Assembly (NCBI GenBank): GCA_031273735.1
Contig: JAISRI010000094.1
Location: 1 to 35,982, forward strand
DNA from: Helicobacteraceae bacterium
GTDB lineage: Bacteria; Campylobacterota; Campylobacteria; Campylobacterales; SZUA-545
Direction: 5' to 3'
DNA: 35,982 nt
Part shown: one piece after another, positions 335-18,687 of the stretch
How the letters are laid out: each line of letters begins with the position of its first letter
Numbering within the stretch: position 1 is the first letter of the stretch
Notes under the pieces: generated by a model
What the model was told of the DNA's origin: nothing
The model's database searches: none
Seen by the model: the letters and a program-made list of their open reading frames with translations, nothing else
Translations under genes and position numbers: made by a program

Positions 335-1559
335 GGAGAAAAAAACGCGCTATCGATCGGTCGCAAAAGAAGAGAACGATCCAAAATATCGGGGGATTTA
401 TAGATTAAAAGGTAAAGATGGATTTGATTATCTTTCTCTTGTTTTTTACGATCCGCGAAGTAAAAGCCAAGTATGGCGATCGATCGGGCGCGAGGAATTG
501 AAACAATCGAAAAAGAAAAGCGCGGACGATTTAGGATTTTACAAACTTGACGACGTCTTAATTTGGTTTAATGCGCTTAAGAAAAGGTTAAAAGGCTTTA
601 CGCTACGCCCTGACGAGGAGCGAGATATAAACGCGATTTTAAGGGGTCGATCAAGCGTAACTTTTAAGGATATTTTTTATGATTATTTGGCTTCTTTGAA
701 AAATGAGAAAGTTAAAAAAGATTATTTGGGATATTATAAAAATCATATAGAAAACTTTATCGGCGACGTTGATCCTAGATATGTAAATAAAACCATTCTA
801 AAAGCGATTTATGAAAATGCAATAAAAACTTTAGACTACGGAACGATACAGATTTTATTTGCCGTAATTCGCGCCGCTTTTAACGCGGAATTAAACCAAG
901 ACGAACCGCGAGTAGATAAAAACCCCGTGCCGTCTTTTTTAAAACAATATCCGTTAATAACAAATCTGAATAATGTAAAAGATCGAACATATACGATCGA
1001 CGAAATTATAAATATATTAACCTTAGCTAAATCGGATCGCGAGATTTTTAATTTTTGTTTATTCGCCGTCTGTTTTGGCGGGCGCGGCGGCGCGATCGCG
1101 AGTATTAAAAACGAGGATATAAACTTAAAAGAAAAAACAATTAGGCTAATAGATGAAAAGGCGAAAACCGCGAATAATAAAGAGTGGCTTTATACAATTC
1201 CGATCGCTAATATCTTAATAGATTATCTAACAAAAGAAATGAAAAATAATAAAAAACTTATAAACGTAGGTATAACAACTTTAAGAAAAGAAACTATAAA
1301 AATAATCGATAAAGTTATCCCAAACAATAAAACCGCCGATCGCAAATCTCGCTTAACTATCCATTCATTCCGATCGTTTGCTATAACGCAATTGTTAAAT
1401 AATGGCTGCCCTGAATATCTTGTAAAAAGATTTAGCAATCACTCGCAAAAAAAGCGCGAAGCGTTTAACCGATACACTCACGCGGAATTAAACGTCTTAA
1501 GACCATATGTAGACAAGTCCTACGAGTTTTTAACGTCCGTTATTTATAAGCGGTTATAA
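333..1559 (+). CDS. int: Tyrosine recombinase / phage integrase
   Basis: Catalytic-type motifs FGGRGGAIASIKNEDI, HSFRSFAITQLLNNG, SNHSQKKREAFNRYTH; position at prophage end. Confidence 0.93.
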   Translation: MEKKTRYRSVAKEENDPKYRGIYRLKGKDGFDYLSLVFYDPRSKSQVWRSIGREELKQSKKKSADDLGFYKLDDVLIWFNALKKRLKGFTLRPDEERDINAILRGRSSVTFKDIFYDYLASLKNEKVKKDYLGYYKNHIENFIGDVDPRYVNKTILKAIYENAIKTLDYGTIQILFAVIRAAFNAELNQDEPRVDKNPVPSFLKQYPLITNLNNVKDRTYTIDEIINILTLAKSDREIFNFCLFAVCFGGRGGAIASIKNEDINLKEKTIRLIDEKAKTANNKEWLYTIPIANILIDYLTKEMKNNKKLINVGITTLRKETIKIIDKVIPNNKTADRKSRLTIHSFRSFAITQLLNNGCPEYLVKRFSNHSQKKREAFNRYTHAELNVLRPYVDKSYEFLTSVIYKRL

Positions 1560-7472: not shown

Positions 7473-7664
7473 TTACTCCTCTTGATCGGGATAAAAATAA
7501 ATCCCGCAAGACGGCGCGCAATGATGATAGTATTTATAATCATCGCAAGGCATTAAATTGTCTAAATGGCAACTACATTCTTTATCCTCATCAGTGGAAT
7601 AATTATAAAGCCCGTCGAAGCCTTTATACTCTAACCACTCACTAACAATTTCTTTAATGTTCAT
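7473..7664 (-). CDS. Small Cys/His-rich (putative Zn-binding) phage protein
   Basis: MNIKEIVSEWLEYKGFDGLYNYS...CSCHLDNLMPCDD, paralogous to 6707..6967. Confidence 0.65.
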   Translation of the reverse strand: MNIKEIVSEWLEYKGFDGLYNYSTDEDKECSCHLDNLMPCDDYKYYHHCAPSCGIYFYPDQEE

Positions 7665-8586
7665 TTTCCACTCCTTTATTAAGTTTTAACGCTTTAATAA
7701 TCGTTTTAGCCATTTGCGGCGGGACGCTATTGCCGATCTGCCGCATTTGATGGCTTCTTTTACCGCAAAAAGCGAAAAACCTATTAAAGCCCTGTAACAG
7801 CTTTAATTCCGTAATTGTTAAGTGGGAATAGTGGGTTTTTTGTGCGTTTATAATCCATATATTCGATCCTTTTGTCGCGATCGTCGGCGTTAATCCGCTA
7901 ATCGAATAAATCGACGGGTTTAAATTGCGCAAACAAATAAAATCTGTATTTATTATGTTTAGCGGATCGTGGTTTTTAATCGCGGTTAACGTATAAACGT
8001 CGCTTGTTATTAGCGGCTTCCATTCTCTTTTTTTTGTTAAATAGTCTCTTGTTGATTTTGCTTTTTGCTTTTCAAAATTAAGGACAAAATCGGTATTTCT
8101 AGCGATTATAAATAAGCGTTTTCGCATAGTTGCGCCGCCACAATGGCTATGTTTTATAATATAACTTTCTACGCGTTTAAATCTTTTTGATAATCTATCG
8201 ATTAAAATCTTGCAATGATCATAATTATTTAAATCGGGGACGTTTTCTATAACTAGATTTTCAATATCCGCGTTTTGCGCCCAAATTAAAGGCGTATAAA
8301 TTAAATCCGCTATATCTTTATTTTTTTCGTGGCGTTTTGCGATAGAAAACTCCGTGCAAGGGGGCGAAGCCCAAAGCAATTTAATCGGCTTGCCGTTTGT
8401 ATATTCTTTTATCGCTTTTTCGCCGATTTTGCCTATATCGGCGCATATCGTTTCGCCGCTATGGTTTTTTGCGTGAGTTTCGCAAGCGATTTTCCAAAAA
8501 TCAAAGGCTAGATCGGGCGATTTGCCGATCGCTTGTCTTATGCCCTCGCTAGCTCCCCCCGCGCCGCAAAATAGCTCTATAATCAT
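7654..8586 (-). CDS. DNA (cytosine-5) methyltransferase
   Basis: ELFCGAGGASEG, ASPPCTEFSIA, ENVPDL, QIGNSVPPQMA motifs. Confidence 0.92.
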   Translation of the reverse strand: MIIELFCGAGGASEGIRQAIGKSPDLAFDFWKIACETHAKNHSGETICADIGKIGEKAIKEYTNGKPIKLLWASPPCTEFSIAKRHEKNKDIADLIYTPLIWAQNADIENLVIENVPDLNNYDHCKILIDRLSKRFKRVESYIIKHSHCGGATMRKRLFIIARNTDFVLNFEKQKAKSTRDYLTKKREWKPLITSDVYTLTAIKNHDPLNIINTDFICLRNLNPSIYSISGLTPTIATKGSNIWIINAQKTHYSHLTITELKLLQGFNRFFAFCGKRSHQMRQIGNSVPPQMAKTIIKALKLNKGVENEH

Positions 8587-13732: not shown

Positions 13733-14221
13733 ATGTTCAAAAAAATTACACAAAAACTAAAAAATCGCTTAAGTTTTGTTACCGACAAGGAGCTTTACGA
13801 GGCGTTGGGAATGACAAAAAGTCGATTTAATGGTCGAAAAGGTCTCAACTCGATCCCCTACGAGGAGATCATTATCCTATGTATTAAGCGCGATATTTCG
13901 CTAGATTGGCTTTTTGATAACAAGATAACGGACGGCGCGGGCGCTTCAACTTCGATCAATAATCTTAATAGCGGGGTCAGCGTAAGCAATGGCGCAATAA
14001 CGGGCGATATACATTTTAACGGCGGCGAAAAAATAATCACGACGTTAAATCCCGACGATTTTGCCGCGCCACAAACAGCCGCCGAAGTCGTCGAAAACTT
14101 AAAATACTGCCCAAAACCTTTTATAGATGAGCTACACAACAAAGTCCAAGCGTTCAAAACGATCGCAAAACGAGGGATAAGTCCTCGCCCAAAACCAAAA
14201 CCGCGCAAAAAAAGCGATTAA
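13733..14221 (+). CDS. CI-like repressor lacking an S24 peptidase domain
   Basis: N-terminal KNRLSFVTDKELYEALGMTKSRFNGRKGLNSIPYEEIIILCIKRDISLDWLF; C-terminus short and Pro/Lys-rich. Confidence 0.75.
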   Translation: MFKKITQKLKNRLSFVTDKELYEALGMTKSRFNGRKGLNSIPYEEIIILCIKRDISLDWLFDNKITDGAGASTSINNLNSGVSVSNGAITGDIHFNGGEKIITTLNPDDFAAPQTAAEVVENLKYCPKPFIDELHNKVQAFKTIAKRGISPRPKPKPRKKSD

Positions 14222-14264
14222 AGTTTAATTTGATAAGATATTAAAAAGATAGGGGAAGCGAAAA

Positions 14265-14672
14265 ATGAACGACGAAAATAAACCAAAAAAACAAGAGCTT
14301 ACCTTTCGGCAACAATTGATTGTTATGCCGTTTGTCTTTTTAATTCTGGCATTGACTTTCAATTGGTTATTAAAACCAAGCCCGCCCAAACCATACGTCC
14401 CGCCGACCGAACAAGAGACGGCTAAGGAAGTTTTTCGCAACGTCGAATACTATTTTAAGCAAAACTTAAAAAATCCTGATAGTTATAAAAAAATAGATAT
14501 GCAATACACAAAAATAAAATACGACGCAAACGCAAGCGGAACGTCTGAATGGATTTTTTTATTGACTTACGAGGCGACTAACTCTTTCAACGCCGTGATC
14601 CGTAGCCGCGCCAAAATTAGAGCTTGGAGCGGCGGCGGGCAAGTCCGCTTTAATATATTACAAAACGAGTAA
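14265..14672 (+). CDS. Membrane-anchored protein of unknown function, next to the repressor
   Basis: Single TM (LIVMPFVFLILALTFNWLL) then a soluble domain; co-oriented with the repressor. Confidence 0.65.
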   Translation: MNDENKPKKQELTFRQQLIVMPFVFLILALTFNWLLKPSPPKPYVPPTEQETAKEVFRNVEYYFKQNLKNPDSYKKIDMQYTKIKYDANASGTSEWIFLLTYEATNSFNAVIRSRAKIRAWSGGGQVRFNILQNE

Positions 14673-14706
14673 TTTTATTTTTTAGCGTTTTTGTCGATAT
14701 AAAATT

Positions 14707-14840
14707 GACGCGAGACCAAAAGGGATCGCGAGGATTGAAACAACGTTTATATTGACGGCAAAACCGAAATACGATTTTATTTCGTTTTTTTCGTCGATCG
14801 CGTTTGGCGCGGTCGCTTCGGGGGTCGCGAGGGTTGAAAC
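14707..14840 (+). repeat. Two CRISPR-repeat-like hairpin units ending in GAGGRTTGAAAC
   Basis: Unit A 14707-14741; unit B ends at 14840 (CGCGGTCGC-TTCG-GGGGTCGCGAGGGTTGAAAC). Confidence 0.75.
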
Positions 14841-15058
14841 TACGATGACGATGCGTATAAGCGCATTTTCAAGCGGGCGCGGTCGGTTTTTTTACCGATC
14901 GCGCTTTTCTTACGCGGATTTTTTGCGGGCGCGAAAAGTTGGCGGTTTTCATAGGCTTCCGCGATCTTGATCAGCGGTTCGGCTTCCGTCCAAAGCCTTT
15001 TAACTTCGGGGTCGTCTTCCGTTTTTCCCGCGTCCATTAGCCATTTTCGCGATCGCAA
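14840..15058 (-). CDS. Hypothetical protein, last gene of the P2 operon
   Basis: TTG start; KWLMDAGKTEDDPEVKRLWTEAEPLIKIAEAYE looks coding; C-terminus overlaps the opposed terminator. Confidence 0.4.
   Translation of the reverse strand: MRSRKWLMDAGKTEDDPEVKRLWTEAEPLIKIAEAYENRQLFAPAKNPRKKSAIGKKTDRARLKMRLYASSS
14877..14908 (+). terminator. Intrinsic terminator of the left hairpin array
   Basis: GCGCGGTCGGT-TTTTTT-ACCGATCGCGC then TTTTCTT. Confidence 0.6.
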
Positions 15059-15119
15059 AAGTTTCGCCGCCGCGCTCGCGGCGATAAAAGCGTCCGCAAA
15101 AACGACGGGATTTTACGTT

Positions 15120-15428
15120 TTACGCGGGTTTTTGCTCCCGCGCCACAACCTCGCGCCATCGCGCCTCAATAATGTCGGCGAGATCAAGCCCGTCGCTAAA
15201 GTTCCCGCCGATAATTTTCCAAAAATCGCCGATCCCAAAAAAGTTATTGATCTCGTCGATCGCGTGGGCGCTCCCGCCTTTAAAGTGGCGATCCATTCCG
15301 ATCGCCAACTCGCCCAGCTCTTTGCTAGAGAGCTTTTTAATGACGGTAGCGGGAATATCCCGCAAAATATGCGCCTTCGCGGCGGGTAAAAACCCGCCCA
15401 TCGCCCTTTTGATTTTGATGTTGCTCAT
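15120..15428 (-). CDS. Hypothetical protein, P2 operon
   Basis: MSNIKIKRAMGGFLPAAKAHILRDIPATVIKKLSSKELGELAIGMD...; coding-like. Confidence 0.6.
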   Translation of the reverse strand: MSNIKIKRAMGGFLPAAKAHILRDIPATVIKKLSSKELGELAIGMDRHFKGGSAHAIDEINNFFGIGDFWKIIGGNFSDGLDLADIIEARWREVVAREQKPA

Positions 15429-15443
15429 TTTCTCGTCCCCCCC

Positions 15444-15845
15444 TTATTTGATAAGCGATTGCAAAATCGCGATCGCTTTTTGATAATCGCCCGCGTTTAT
15501 AGCGGCGATCGCCTCTTGTTTCCCGTCTTTCACGGGCGGGTTTTTTTGCTCCAAGAGGTAGTTGTATACCTCTGTTTTTTCCATTTCTACCGCTTCGCCG
15601 TTTTTGACGATCGCATAACTCGCGGCGCTTGCGCCCCTCGTGTCCTTGCACCCCCAAGCGATCGCGTCGCCGTCTTTTGCGTCGATATGCAAATCGCCGC
15701 GCCCCGCGCTTTTAACGTTCCATTCGCCGACAAAATTGCCAGCGGCGAAATCAAATGCCATTTTCCCCTCTTTAATCGAGAGCTTCGCGCCCCACGGTCT
15801 TGTATAACGTCGAGCGTTATAGCCCTCGTAACTTTCTACTTTCAT
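15444..15845 (-). CDS. Hypothetical protein, first gene of the P2 operon
   Basis: Start MKVESYEGYNARRYTRPWG at 15845, just downstream of P2; the longer track ORF includes the promoter. Confidence 0.65.
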   Translation of the reverse strand: MKVESYEGYNARRYTRPWGAKLSIKEGKMAFDFAAGNFVGEWNVKSAGRGDLHIDAKDGDAIAWGCKDTRGASAASYAIVKNGEAVEMEKTEVYNYLLEQKNPPVKDGKQEAIAAINAGDYQKAIAILQSLIK

Positions 15846-15874: not shown

Positions 15875-15913
15875 TAATTATAGCGGACTTTGTTCGCGAA
15901 GTCAAGGGTTTTT
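15875..15913 (-). promoter_or_regulatory. Promoter/operator P2 (39 bp identical to P1)
   Basis: Minus strand TTGACT-17 bp-TATAAT; spacer holds GACTT-N8-AAGTC and TTCGCGAA palindromes. Confidence 0.85.
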
Positions 15914-15987
15914 GCAAAAGTTTTTGATTTTTTTTGCAAAAAATTAACAAACTCGCTCCCTGACTACGTTTGACGGATACAAAAAAA

Positions 15988-16476
15988 TCAAATTATCGGC
16001 GGCGAGGGGTCTATCTCGCCCGCTTGCGCGAGCGCCCAAGCCGATCGCAACGGCTCGCTATCAGCGCGATCGCCTAACCACGCGAGATAATCGGCGCGGT
16101 TAAAAGCGATCAACCTCACGCGATCGCCGTAACGTTTTTTGACCGCCGCTAAAACGCTTTGGCGCGGGCGAAAATATCGCTCCGCTTCGCCGATTTCGAG
16201 CCAATCGGCGGGGTCGCTATACCACACAAGCGCGATCGCGCTAGGCGATTTTTTGCGCTTTTTGATCTGCCCGCCGATCGTTTCGATCGCGGTTTTAAGC
16301 GCGTTTTCGCGCCATTCGCTTAATTCTTTAAGCGCTTTTTCCACGCGATCGGGGACTTTTCGATACCCGCTTTCATAATCGTTTATTGTCGATCTTACCG
16401 CATCAACGATTTTGCCTAAATCCACTTGCGACAAAAACAGACGTTGGCGCGTCGCGCTAAATTCGGCGTTAGTCAT
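15988..16476 (-). CDS. DUF1870/Aca2-like HTH regulator
   Basis: MTNAEFSATRQRLFLSQVDLGKIVDAVRSTINDYESGYRKVPDRVEKALKELSEWRENALK resembles recalled Aca2/YdiL architecture. Confidence 0.55.
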   Translation of the reverse strand: MTNAEFSATRQRLFLSQVDLGKIVDAVRSTINDYESGYRKVPDRVEKALKELSEWRENALKTAIETIGGQIKKRKKSPSAIALVWYSDPADWLEIGEAERYFRPRQSVLAAVKKRYGDRVRLIAFNRADYLAWLGDRADSEPLRSAWALAQAGEIDPSPPII

Positions 16477-16523
16477 TTTTATTCCGTTCTTTAAATTAAC
16501 TTGCGGCATTATGACACAATTAA

Positions 16524-16583
16524 GGGCGGATCCCTCCGCCCCCTGGAGTTTGCTAGAAACTCCCTATCAGTTCGGACTGATAG
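16524..16583 (-). promoter_or_regulatory. Three consecutive perfect RNA hairpins
   Basis: CTATCAGT/ACTGATAG (16564-16583), GGAGTTT/AAACTCC (16545-16563), GGGCGGA/TCCGCCC (16524-16541). Confidence 0.8.
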
Positions 16584-17062
16584 ACATATAATAACGCCCT
16601 ACGCGCCAGCGCGAGGCGTTTTTTTAGGGGTTTATCCTCTTTGCCCAAAATCGCGGCTTCGGTTTCCCGCGCCGCTTTTTTAAGCGTCTCATTAAAAACT
16701 ACGTCGTCGCGTTCCTTGCCGCGTTGCGCTTGTCTTTTGGCGGGTTTCTTTAAATATGGATACAGATTTAGGGGGTGTATATCCCTATTATCATCATTGA
16801 CTACCCACGCCGCCGAGTCTATTATTAGGGCGGCGTATGCGCCGAGACGTTCGTCTTGCGCGTCTGCAAGCGCCCTCGCTTTGGCTTTAAGCGCAAAAAT
16901 CGCGTCCATCCATTCGTCCTTGTAAAAGCTCGGACAATAGTTCAAGTAGCACCGTTGTATTTCCACGCGCTCTCTTAGCTCGCGCCAATACTCGTCGCGG
17001 GCGAGCGCTTTTTCGCCGTTTGCCGCTAGAAACTCCCTAGCGGTTTTTAGTAACTCTTCCAT
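16553..17062 (-). CDS. Hypothetical accessory protein, first gene of the P1 operon
   Basis: Good RBS (AAGGAG) and P1 promoter; no family recognised. Confidence 0.7.
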   Translation of the reverse strand: MEELLKTAREFLAANGEKALARDEYWRELRERVEIQRCYLNYCPSFYKDEWMDAIFALKAKARALADAQDERLGAYAALIIDSAAWVVNDDNRDIHPLNLYPYLKKPAKRQAQRGKERDDVVFNETLKKAARETEAAILGKEDKPLKKRLALARRALLYVYQSELIGSF

Positions 17063-17088
17063 TTTCTGCTCCTTTTTTTGTTATGGCA

Positions 17089-17127
17089 TAATTATAGCGG
17101 ACTTTGTTCGCGAAGTCAAGGGTTTTT
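17089..17127 (-). promoter_or_regulatory. Promoter/operator P1 (39 bp identical to P2)
   Basis: TTGACT (17114-17119 complement), 17-bp spacer, TATAAT (17091-17096 complement). Confidence 0.85.
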
Positions 17128-17256
17128 TGAAAGTTTTTCTATTTTTTTTGCAATTTTTTAACAAACGTAGTCATAGAGCGGGTTTGTTGGCATAAGATTT
17201 TTTGAAAAATTATCGAGGAACGGGCGAAAAAGAGGGCGAAAAGCAGAAAAAAGAGC

Positions 17257-17296
17257 AAAAAAAAGGGCGCGGGCGGCAAAAAACCGCCTCGCGCCC
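17257..17296 (-). terminator. Strong intrinsic terminator of the right hairpin array
   Basis: Minus strand GGGCGCG-A-GGCGG-TTTTTTG-CCGCC-CGCGCCC then T8. Confidence 0.85.
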
Positions 17297-17329: not shown

Positions 17330-17691
17330 ATTTCAATCCTCGCTCCCGCGATACTCGCGGGAACGTCCGAAAATAAAACTACTTTGCCACAATAACGTTT
17401 CAATCCTCGCGACCCCCAAAAGGGATCGCGTCGCCAAAGCCTAAAACGACTTGACCATAGTACTGCTTCAATCCTCGCGCCCGCGAAGGCGCGGCAAAAA
17501 CTATTTTAATCCGCGCGACCGCCGAAGCGATCGCGACAAAAACGAACATTTTGCTATCGCACAATGTTTCAAAAACAACGTTTCAATCCTCGCGCCCTTG
17601 CGGGCGCGGCAAAGAACGAACAAATTGCCGTCAAGCAAAGTAACAAAAACAATGTTTCAACCCTCGCGGACGGGCGAACCCGCCCGCGTCG
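17330..17691 (-). repeat. Array of six CRISPR type I-C-repeat-like hairpin units (degenerate stems, conserved GAGGATTGAAAC tail)
   Basis: Units at 17330-17365, 17397-17433, 17465-17495, 17503-17537, 17580-17610, 17654-17691. Confidence 0.85.
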
Positions 17692-17823
17692 ATAGAATAA
17701 TAACCTAATTAACCTTAAATGAAACTTAAGCGGCTGATTATTGTTTTGATAATTGCCCGCTAGAGATTAAGCCAGCGGGAGCAAACCCCATCTAAAAGGA
17801 TCGCAATCATAGCAAATTTAAAC

Positions 17824-18687
17824 TTAAGCCGCGAAACTCAAAAGATCGCGATTATTTTTTAACGCTTTTGTTTTAGTCGCGCCGTTGATAAAATAAAGCT
17901 CCTCGATATATTGCGCCGCTCGCGCCATTGTTTGCGATTTTGTTAAATGCTTATACGGGATATTTAATAATTCAAATATCGCGTCTAATTCGCTTTTTTC
18001 GCTCGTAAAAATATATCCTTCTCTATCGCCGATCCCTTTGATTAAATCTATCGTATCTTTCAGTCCAAAACTGCCGTGAAAATCTTTCTCGTTCGCGTCT
18101 GGTTTTTTTTTTCTGTAAGTGGCTTGATGGGTAAAAATATAAGGCGGATCGCACACAAAAACCGCGTTATCTATATCCCTAAATTGTTCTAAAACTATTC
18201 TAAAATCCGCGCTTATTCTTTCCACGCCCGCGAGATAATCGGCGCATTTTTTTAACGGATTTTTGCGTAGATTGTAATACTTAATATCGTCTTTTCTGAT
18301 GTCGATCACCGCCATTTGGTGCATAAACCACGCTTGCGCCGTATCTTTGTCGTAATCGCTAAACGACGAAAAAACCGATTTTATAACCGCTCTATGCTCG
18401 TCGTTTAGCGGTTGCGCGATCGCTAAATTAAAAGGTTCTAACGCTTTGACTAACGCTAATCTTAATCGTTCCGTTTCCTCTATTTTTGCAAGCCGCGCCG
18501 CGTAATTATCAAAATCGTTCCATATCACCCGCGCTTTAGGATTTTTCGCCTTAATATGATGGCTTAAAAGCCCCGATCCGCCGAATAAATCTATTACGAT
18601 TTTATCCGTAAAATCTATCGTAGTAAAATCGGCTATCCAATGCCTTTTTTGACCGATAAATCTAAGCGGAGCGTTGCGATATTTCAT
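17824..18687 (-). CDS. DNA adenine methyltransferase (Dam-like)
   Basis: LRFIGQKRHW, DLFGGSGLLSHH, VCDPPY motifs. Confidence 0.85.
   Translation of the reverse strand: MKYRNAPLRFIGQKRHWIADFTTIDFTDKIVIDLFGGSGLLSHHIKAKNPKARVIWNDFDNYAARLAKIEETERLRLALVKALEPFNLAIAQPLNDEHRAVIKSVFSSFSDYDKDTAQAWFMHQMAVIDIRKDDIKYYNLRKNPLKKCADYLAGVERISADFRIVLEQFRDIDNAVFVCDPPYIFTHQATYRKKKPDANEKDFHGSFGLKDTIDLIKGIGDREGYIFTSEKSELDAIFELLNIPYKHLTKSQTMARAAQYIEELYFINGATKTKALKNNRDLLSFAA

Follow-up and report, generated by a model that had tools for sequence, protein, structure and literature searches.

A candidate Aca2-regulated anti-defence island flanked by type I-C repeat-like hairpins in a temperate siphophage of a Helicobacteraceae bacterium

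Published data link Aca2-type operons and repeat mimics each to anti-CRISPR loci (PMC8434428, PMC9410906, PMC10651486). The operators of Aca proteins lie within the core promoter (PMC9410906; PMC8434428), and a core-promoter dyad is typical of the Acas that are associated with acr genes, whereas solo Acas do not always have one (PMC9410906). An upstream acr gene is known for 35 of 1223 Aca2-like proteins, or about 3% (PMC9410906); YdiL and SO3848 are members of the same family outside acr loci (PMC8434428), and Aca2 and MqsA are structurally related (PMC9410906). On the RNA side, the surroundings of acr genes (within 1 kb) are enriched in racr candidates, 83% of which match the cas subtype of the host (PMC10651486), while the type I-C mimic RacrIC1 comprises one unit on one transcript with its acr gene (PMC10651486).

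The locus described here lies on contig C234, which is the whole window analysed (35,982 nt) and belongs to a 2.04 Mb draft genome in 242 contigs (G000). Family profile searches identified the gene content of the window as that of a temperate siphophage, with an integrase, terminase, portal, capsid, tape measure, lysis genes, a CI-type repressor, an antirepressor and two methyltransferases, and a tetranucleotide correlation of 0.94 between the window and four other G000 contigs ties the contig to its genome. A search of 150 related genomes turned up no close relative of the phage with which the locus could be compared (capsid matches were at about 30% identity). The two phage DNA methyltransferases (7654-8586 and 17824-18687; one of the C5-cytosine type and one of the Dam type) possibly form a further anti-restriction layer. 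Contig C211 of the host genome carries a complete type I-C locus in the order cas3-cas5d-cas8c-cas7-cas4-cas1-cas2, in which Cas1 was named by profile and the remaining cas genes by gene order and sequence; no CRISPR array of the host's own could be located in the assembly. On another host contig (C208, 276-2999; L016) a WYL-type regulator precedes a second cas1-cas2 pair.

A preliminary description of this DNA had outlined a single candidate operon, in which a strong promoter was followed by a 169-aa gene of no known family and then by a helix-turn-helix (HTH) gene. Both reading frames (17062..16553 and 16476..15988) and their order are as described; the arrangement extends past position 15988 into a second operon (15845..14840). 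The features of the two operons are as follows.

17091..17119, minus strand: promoter P1 (TTGACT, 17-nt spacer, TATAAT), 11 of 12 consensus bases
17097-17111, minus strand: dyad GCGAAC-AAA-GTCCGC in the P1 spacer
16553..17062, minus strand: 169-aa orphan gene (open reading frame, no homolog), candidate anti-defence protein
16524..16541, minus strand: hairpin GGGCGGA-GGGA-TCCGCCC between the 169-aa and aca2-like genes (-20.8 kcal/mol, z -1.5)
15988..16476, minus strand: 162-aa Aca2/YdiL-family HTH regulator (PF08965, E=8.6e-7; profile against PDB Aca2, E=3e-22)
15877..15905, minus strand: promoter P2, 29/29 identical to P1 by sequence comparison
15883-15897, minus strand: dyad GCGAAC-AAA-GTCCGC in the P2 spacer
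15444..15845, minus strand: 133-aa protein, first gene behind P2, of an unnamed phage family (YNxRRYxxPW ... GQKDxRG)
15120..15428, minus strand: 102-aa orphan open reading frame, second gene behind P2 (no family or phage match)
14840..15058, minus strand: 72-aa open reading frame with a TTG start, possible third gene behind P2 (no family match)

The assignment of the 162-aa protein to Aca2/DUF1870, which had been made from sequence resemblance, was borne out by the curated Pfam profile PF08965 (Aca2_YdiL), which it matches at 29.6 bits, the cut-off being 23.8. Residues 1-112 aligned with profile positions 1-109, so that the match covers the N-terminal HTH plus the C-terminal domain, for which dimerisation is predicted, and the C-terminal part is also conserved in genome G005 and in Pasteurella phages. 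The start at 16476 (MTN...) agrees with that of the solved Aca2 chains, and R28 aligns one position off the recognition-helix arginine of Aca2, R30. Although the solved Aca2 chains were marginal in a single-sequence search of the PDB (E about 0.1), a small profile built from the protein and its phage relatives gave E=3e-22 for crystal structures of Aca2 and 5e-8 for YdiL. PF08965 was found in its own genome only, the other 149 of the 150 related genomes being without it, and it is therefore a phage trait here. In genome G005 (C93 1489-1725, minus strand; L020) a 78-aa protein resembles the C-terminal domain of the regulator and has no HTH; it is followed by a 70-aa protein (1310-1522, minus strand) that may be an antitoxin-like DNA-binding protein, and the pair looks like a toxin-antitoxin system.

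The strong promoter with an internal dyad that had been noted at P1 was also upheld, with near-consensus hexamers and an imperfect dyad (5/6 pairs) within the 17-nt spacer. By itself this dyad is modest (p about 0.04), and it gains its weight because P2 repeats the 29 bp of P1 exactly (TTGACT-TCGCGAACAAAGTCCGC-TATAAT). Both promoters lie within 96-bp duplicates that are 86% alike, and the 13 differences between the duplicates leave a run of 39 nt untouched (p=0.009 by permutation). The window holds two copies of the dyad and no third copy of it or of the promoter. When the 96-bp promoter was compared with the 150 genomes, matches were almost solely to its A-rich half; of the 27 IMG/VR contigs with a match to the operator, none had the -35 and -10 hexamers on either side of it, and these matches were rejected as chance. 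The duplicates also differ by a small local inversion, in which a 27-nt segment bounded by CAAAC/GTTTG arms is inverted between 15946-15972 (upstream of P2) and 17162-17188 (upstream of P1). Since the operators at P1 and P2 are identical, one regulator probably controls both units, and the 162-aa protein is the presumed autorepressor of the two.

The 169-aa and aca2-like genes are on the same strand, 76 nt apart and behind a single upstream promoter (P1), and are predicted to form an operon. No homolog of the 169-aa protein was found in Pfam, PHROGs, NCBIfam, PADLOC or the PDB, nor in INPHARED phages, IMG/VR, GTDB genome contigs or 120 related genomes, and its single-sequence AF2 model was all-helical with a pLDDT of 40, too poor for a fold search. 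At 169 aa it is longer than most known Acrs. The 133-aa protein was orphan-like in the same collections, and its AlphaFold model, made without an alignment (pLDDT 56), was likewise too poor for a fold search. It nevertheless retains 12/12 invariant residues of a small protein family, here termed RRY-PW/GQKD, and a profile of 11 outside members recovered it from its own genome at E=1.2e-20, with no match in the other 149 genomes; the profile test used real sequences only. A match of the 133-aa protein to a PDB dehydrogenase (E=0.003) was set aside, as the residues concerned are accounted for by the phage family, and the family profile itself had no match in the PDB. The family is widespread in phages (IMG/VR loci L133-L147 and FP_Epona, L132), forming the C-terminal part of larger proteins in L136, L138 and L140, and had no Pfam match (one member scanned) and no family-wide PHROGs model (ten members). 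Its members occur in varied phage accessory clusters, some near recombinases, with no clear anti-defence neighbours.

Beyond the preliminary description, we observed eight repeat-like hairpins flanking both operons.

17330..17692, minus strand: six repeat-like hairpin units, R1-R6, each ending in approximately GCGAGGATTGAAAC (motif matches, covariation)
17265..17296, minus strand: strong hairpin closing R1-R6, then a T run, terminator-like (-29.2 kcal/mol, z -4.8)
14704..14840, plus strand: R7 and R8, two repeat-like units lying close behind the CI-type repressor operon
13733..14672, plus strand: CI-type repressor operon
14876..14905, plus strand: hairpin closing the R7-R8 stretch (fold z -5.2)

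With up to two mismatches the repeat motif matched the window 8 times against 0.4 expected (20-fold), 7 of the 8 matches lying in R1-R8, and none of 100 shuffles reached 8 matches. In their hairpin and 3' handle the units resemble genuine type I-C array repeats of the same genus (GTCGCGCCCTTCGCGGGGCGCGTGGATTGAAAC in G004 and GTCGCGCTCCTTGCGAGCGCGTGGATTGAAAC in G006), which served for the comparison since the host's own array is absent from the assembly; the matching cas subtype is encoded by the host, on C211. An alignment of 12 stems, including two units of host contig C166 and the two true repeats from G004 and G006, had 96% of stem cells paired, with the fifth pair in five forms, and a covariation score of 0.405 against 0.151 when shuffled (0/500). 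The outer seven pairs of this alignment were kept and the loops left out by eye, which biases the percentage paired upward and the covariation less so. The base of the stem and, nearly, the last 11 nt are constant, 11 nt being the length of the 5' handle made by Cas5d (PMC5965380).

The units are clustered as six and two rather than solitary, as a Racr unit would be. Nor do they have the make-up of a CRISPR array: the stems have diverged, the intervening sequences range in length from 10 to 62 nt, and one of these, S1, duplicates another, S2 (p<0.002), so the stretch did not arise as an array through spacer acquisition. No target of the intervening sequences was found in the stretches searched, and no good promoter was found directly upstream of R1. 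Among the CRISPR spacers of G004 and G006, the best match to the window (27/34) falls in the dam gene and is without a TTC PAM, which makes a related gene of some other phage the probable target of that spacer; spacer matches at P1 were A-rich and partial and were not used as support. Type I-C-like repeat units are also present in the host chromosome (C166:4670-4777; L017), and short dispersed ones occur on ten contigs of G006 (C21, C28, C32, C35, C47, C50, C52, C56, C59 and C62; L112-L116). Where examined, such clusters and single repeats in the two genomes of the genus lie between chromosomal genes and away from cas.

These dispersed units, in G006 and on C166, together with the degeneracy of R1-R8, make it quite conceivable, if short of probable, that the hairpins are decayed host-derived mini-arrays that adjoin the operons by chance. 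Such an origin concerns the hairpins only and is compatible with an anti-defence role of the operons. It fits poorly with the distribution of the units, 8 of about 10 recognisable in the genome lying in two clusters either side of a 3-kb locus on a contig that is less than 2% of the genome, and the covarying stems argue that the hairpin is maintained and not decaying.

Taken together, the stretch from 14.7 to 17.7 kb reads as an Aca2-autorepressed anti-defence island of a temperate siphophage with type I-C as the likeliest target, an interpretation that we only just favour. The locus would then be a plausible store of weapons against the host's type I-C defence. An Aca2-type operon pair and mimics of the host's repeat subtype are two independent lines within 3 kb and, as Racr-type RNAs are known beside acr genes, both signals point to anti-CRISPR function. 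The analysis establishes the family of the regulator, the duplicate promoters, the covarying hairpins and the complete host I-C locus; repression, anti-CRISPR activity and the idea that the hairpins are transcribed and processed are inferred. On infection, P1 and P2 would fire strongly ahead of the build-up of repressor, so that the products of the 169-aa and 133-aa genes and of the small genes behind the latter are made; the Aca2-like dimer, made from the last gene of the P1 unit, would then bind the dyad between -35 and -10 and shut down both promoters. The likeliest target would be the host type I-C CRISPR-Cas, acted on by the 169-aa protein and perhaps by a P2 gene product, while the flanking hairpins, if transcribed, may be bound and cut by Cas5d and compete with genuine crRNAs. 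We hold this Racr-like role less firmly than the anti-defence reading, which stands at about even.

The earlier acr-aca reading thus fits in gene order and promoter dyad, its anti-CRISPR function being a proposal, and the idea that the 169-aa protein may be a type I-C anti-CRISPR is favoured by the host I-C locus and the flanking mimics and weakened by the want of homologs and the low base rate. Against the anti-defence island as a whole we counted that base rate (about 3%), the homolog-less 169-aa protein, the imperfect dyad, the neighbours of the 133-aa family, the repeat-like units in host chromosomes and the lack of a close phage relative. An extended form of the island, unlikely and offered tentatively, would combine protein and RNA anti-CRISPRs, with one Aca2-type repressor acting on two operons through duplicate operators, and clustered I-C repeat decoys that retain the 11-nt Cas5d handle and whose stems have drifted without losing their pairing. 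The decoys would lie on late-side transcripts (downstream of lysozyme-dam) and lysogenic-side transcripts (downstream of the CI operon), and would therefore be made in both life styles.

The same regulator could instead control ordinary phage accessory genes, for example in host takeover or superinfection, with no role in defence. Most Aca2-like proteins do lack an acr neighbour (PMC9410906), YdiL and SO3848 exemplify the family outside acr loci (PMC8434428), and the 133-aa family belongs to varied accessory clusters; we nevertheless regard this account as credible but rather unlikely, as it is precisely this stretch that is bordered by repeat mimics matching the CRISPR subtype of the host, and the core-promoter dyad is typical of acr-associated Acas and not constant in solo ones (PMC9410906). 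It is improbable that the 169-aa protein is a toxin with the HTH protein as its MqsA-like autoregulating antitoxin: the order is MqsRA-like, toxin before antitoxin, Aca2 and MqsA are related in structure (PMC9410906), and the HTH protein has a weak match to the MqsA family (TIGR03830). That match scores 20.8 bits, however, far short of the cut-off at 61.8, whereas the Aca2_YdiL score exceeds its own cut-off; no toxin family was matched by the 169-aa protein, and the P2 operon has the same promoter and no antitoxin-like gene. Several units are spaced about 67 nt apart, much as in an array; even so, it is very improbable that the phage has here a working mini-array directing the host type I-C effector at rival elements, given the non-identical repeats, the uneven spacers, and the mutual copies S1 and S2 with no other match in the stretches searched.

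If the anti-defence island is right, it provides a candidate for Aca2-regulated anti-defence in an order of bacteria that otherwise seldom carries the family, with a named target system (type I-C) and with protein and RNA anti-CRISPR signals joined at one locus; it would then also suggest a function to test for the RRY-PW/GQKD family, widespread but unnamed. If it is wrong, the locus is another Aca2-like regulator without acr, the common case.

Compared with acrIF8-aca2 of Pectobacterium phage ZF40, the locus is alike in that its Aca2-family HTH gene comes after a small gene and an inverted repeat lies in the core promoter (PMC8434428). It differs in that the regulator has 162 aa rather than 116 and is about 30% identical to its nearest phage relatives, the 169-aa cargo is unrelated to any known protein, and two operons share an operator. 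The three nearest phage proteins, from Pasteurella phages Pmp12, Pm86 and CFP3 (27-30% identity), all score as Aca2_YdiL (E 5e-11 to 3e-18), and each is encoded behind one small gene (76, 76 and 79 aa). All three phages have a dyad between the -35 and -10 of the promoter (TTGACT-TTGTTCTAACCTTAGAA-CATAAT in Pmp12 and TTGACT-GGTCGTAATTGCGACCA-TATAAT in CFP3) and a stable hairpin between the two genes (z -3.1 to -3.9), whereas the hairpin at the corresponding place in the window is not significant (z -1.5). The dyad promoter, small orphan gene, hairpin and PF08965 gene are thus shared, while the Pasteurella operons, which are annotated as hypothetical, have a different dyad and a cargo far below 169 aa; the architecture is therefore common to them despite their differing operator sequences. 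Salmonella YdiL and Shewanella SO3848 (PF08965) are of the same fold family, and SO3848 at 166 aa is near the 162 aa here, but both are chromosomal, outside prophages and without an acr link. The 133-aa protein shares 12/12 invariant residues with RRY-PW/GQKD members such as AUV56488.1 of Faecalibacterium phage FP_Epona, and differs from the family by an extra C-terminal helical segment. RacrIC1-acrIC5 of a Bifidobacterium prophage is alike in placing a type I-C repeat mimic beside acr in a prophage (PMC10651486); where it has a single unit co-transcribed with acr, the present locus has six and two units with diverged, covarying stems, apparently off the transcripts of the candidate acr.
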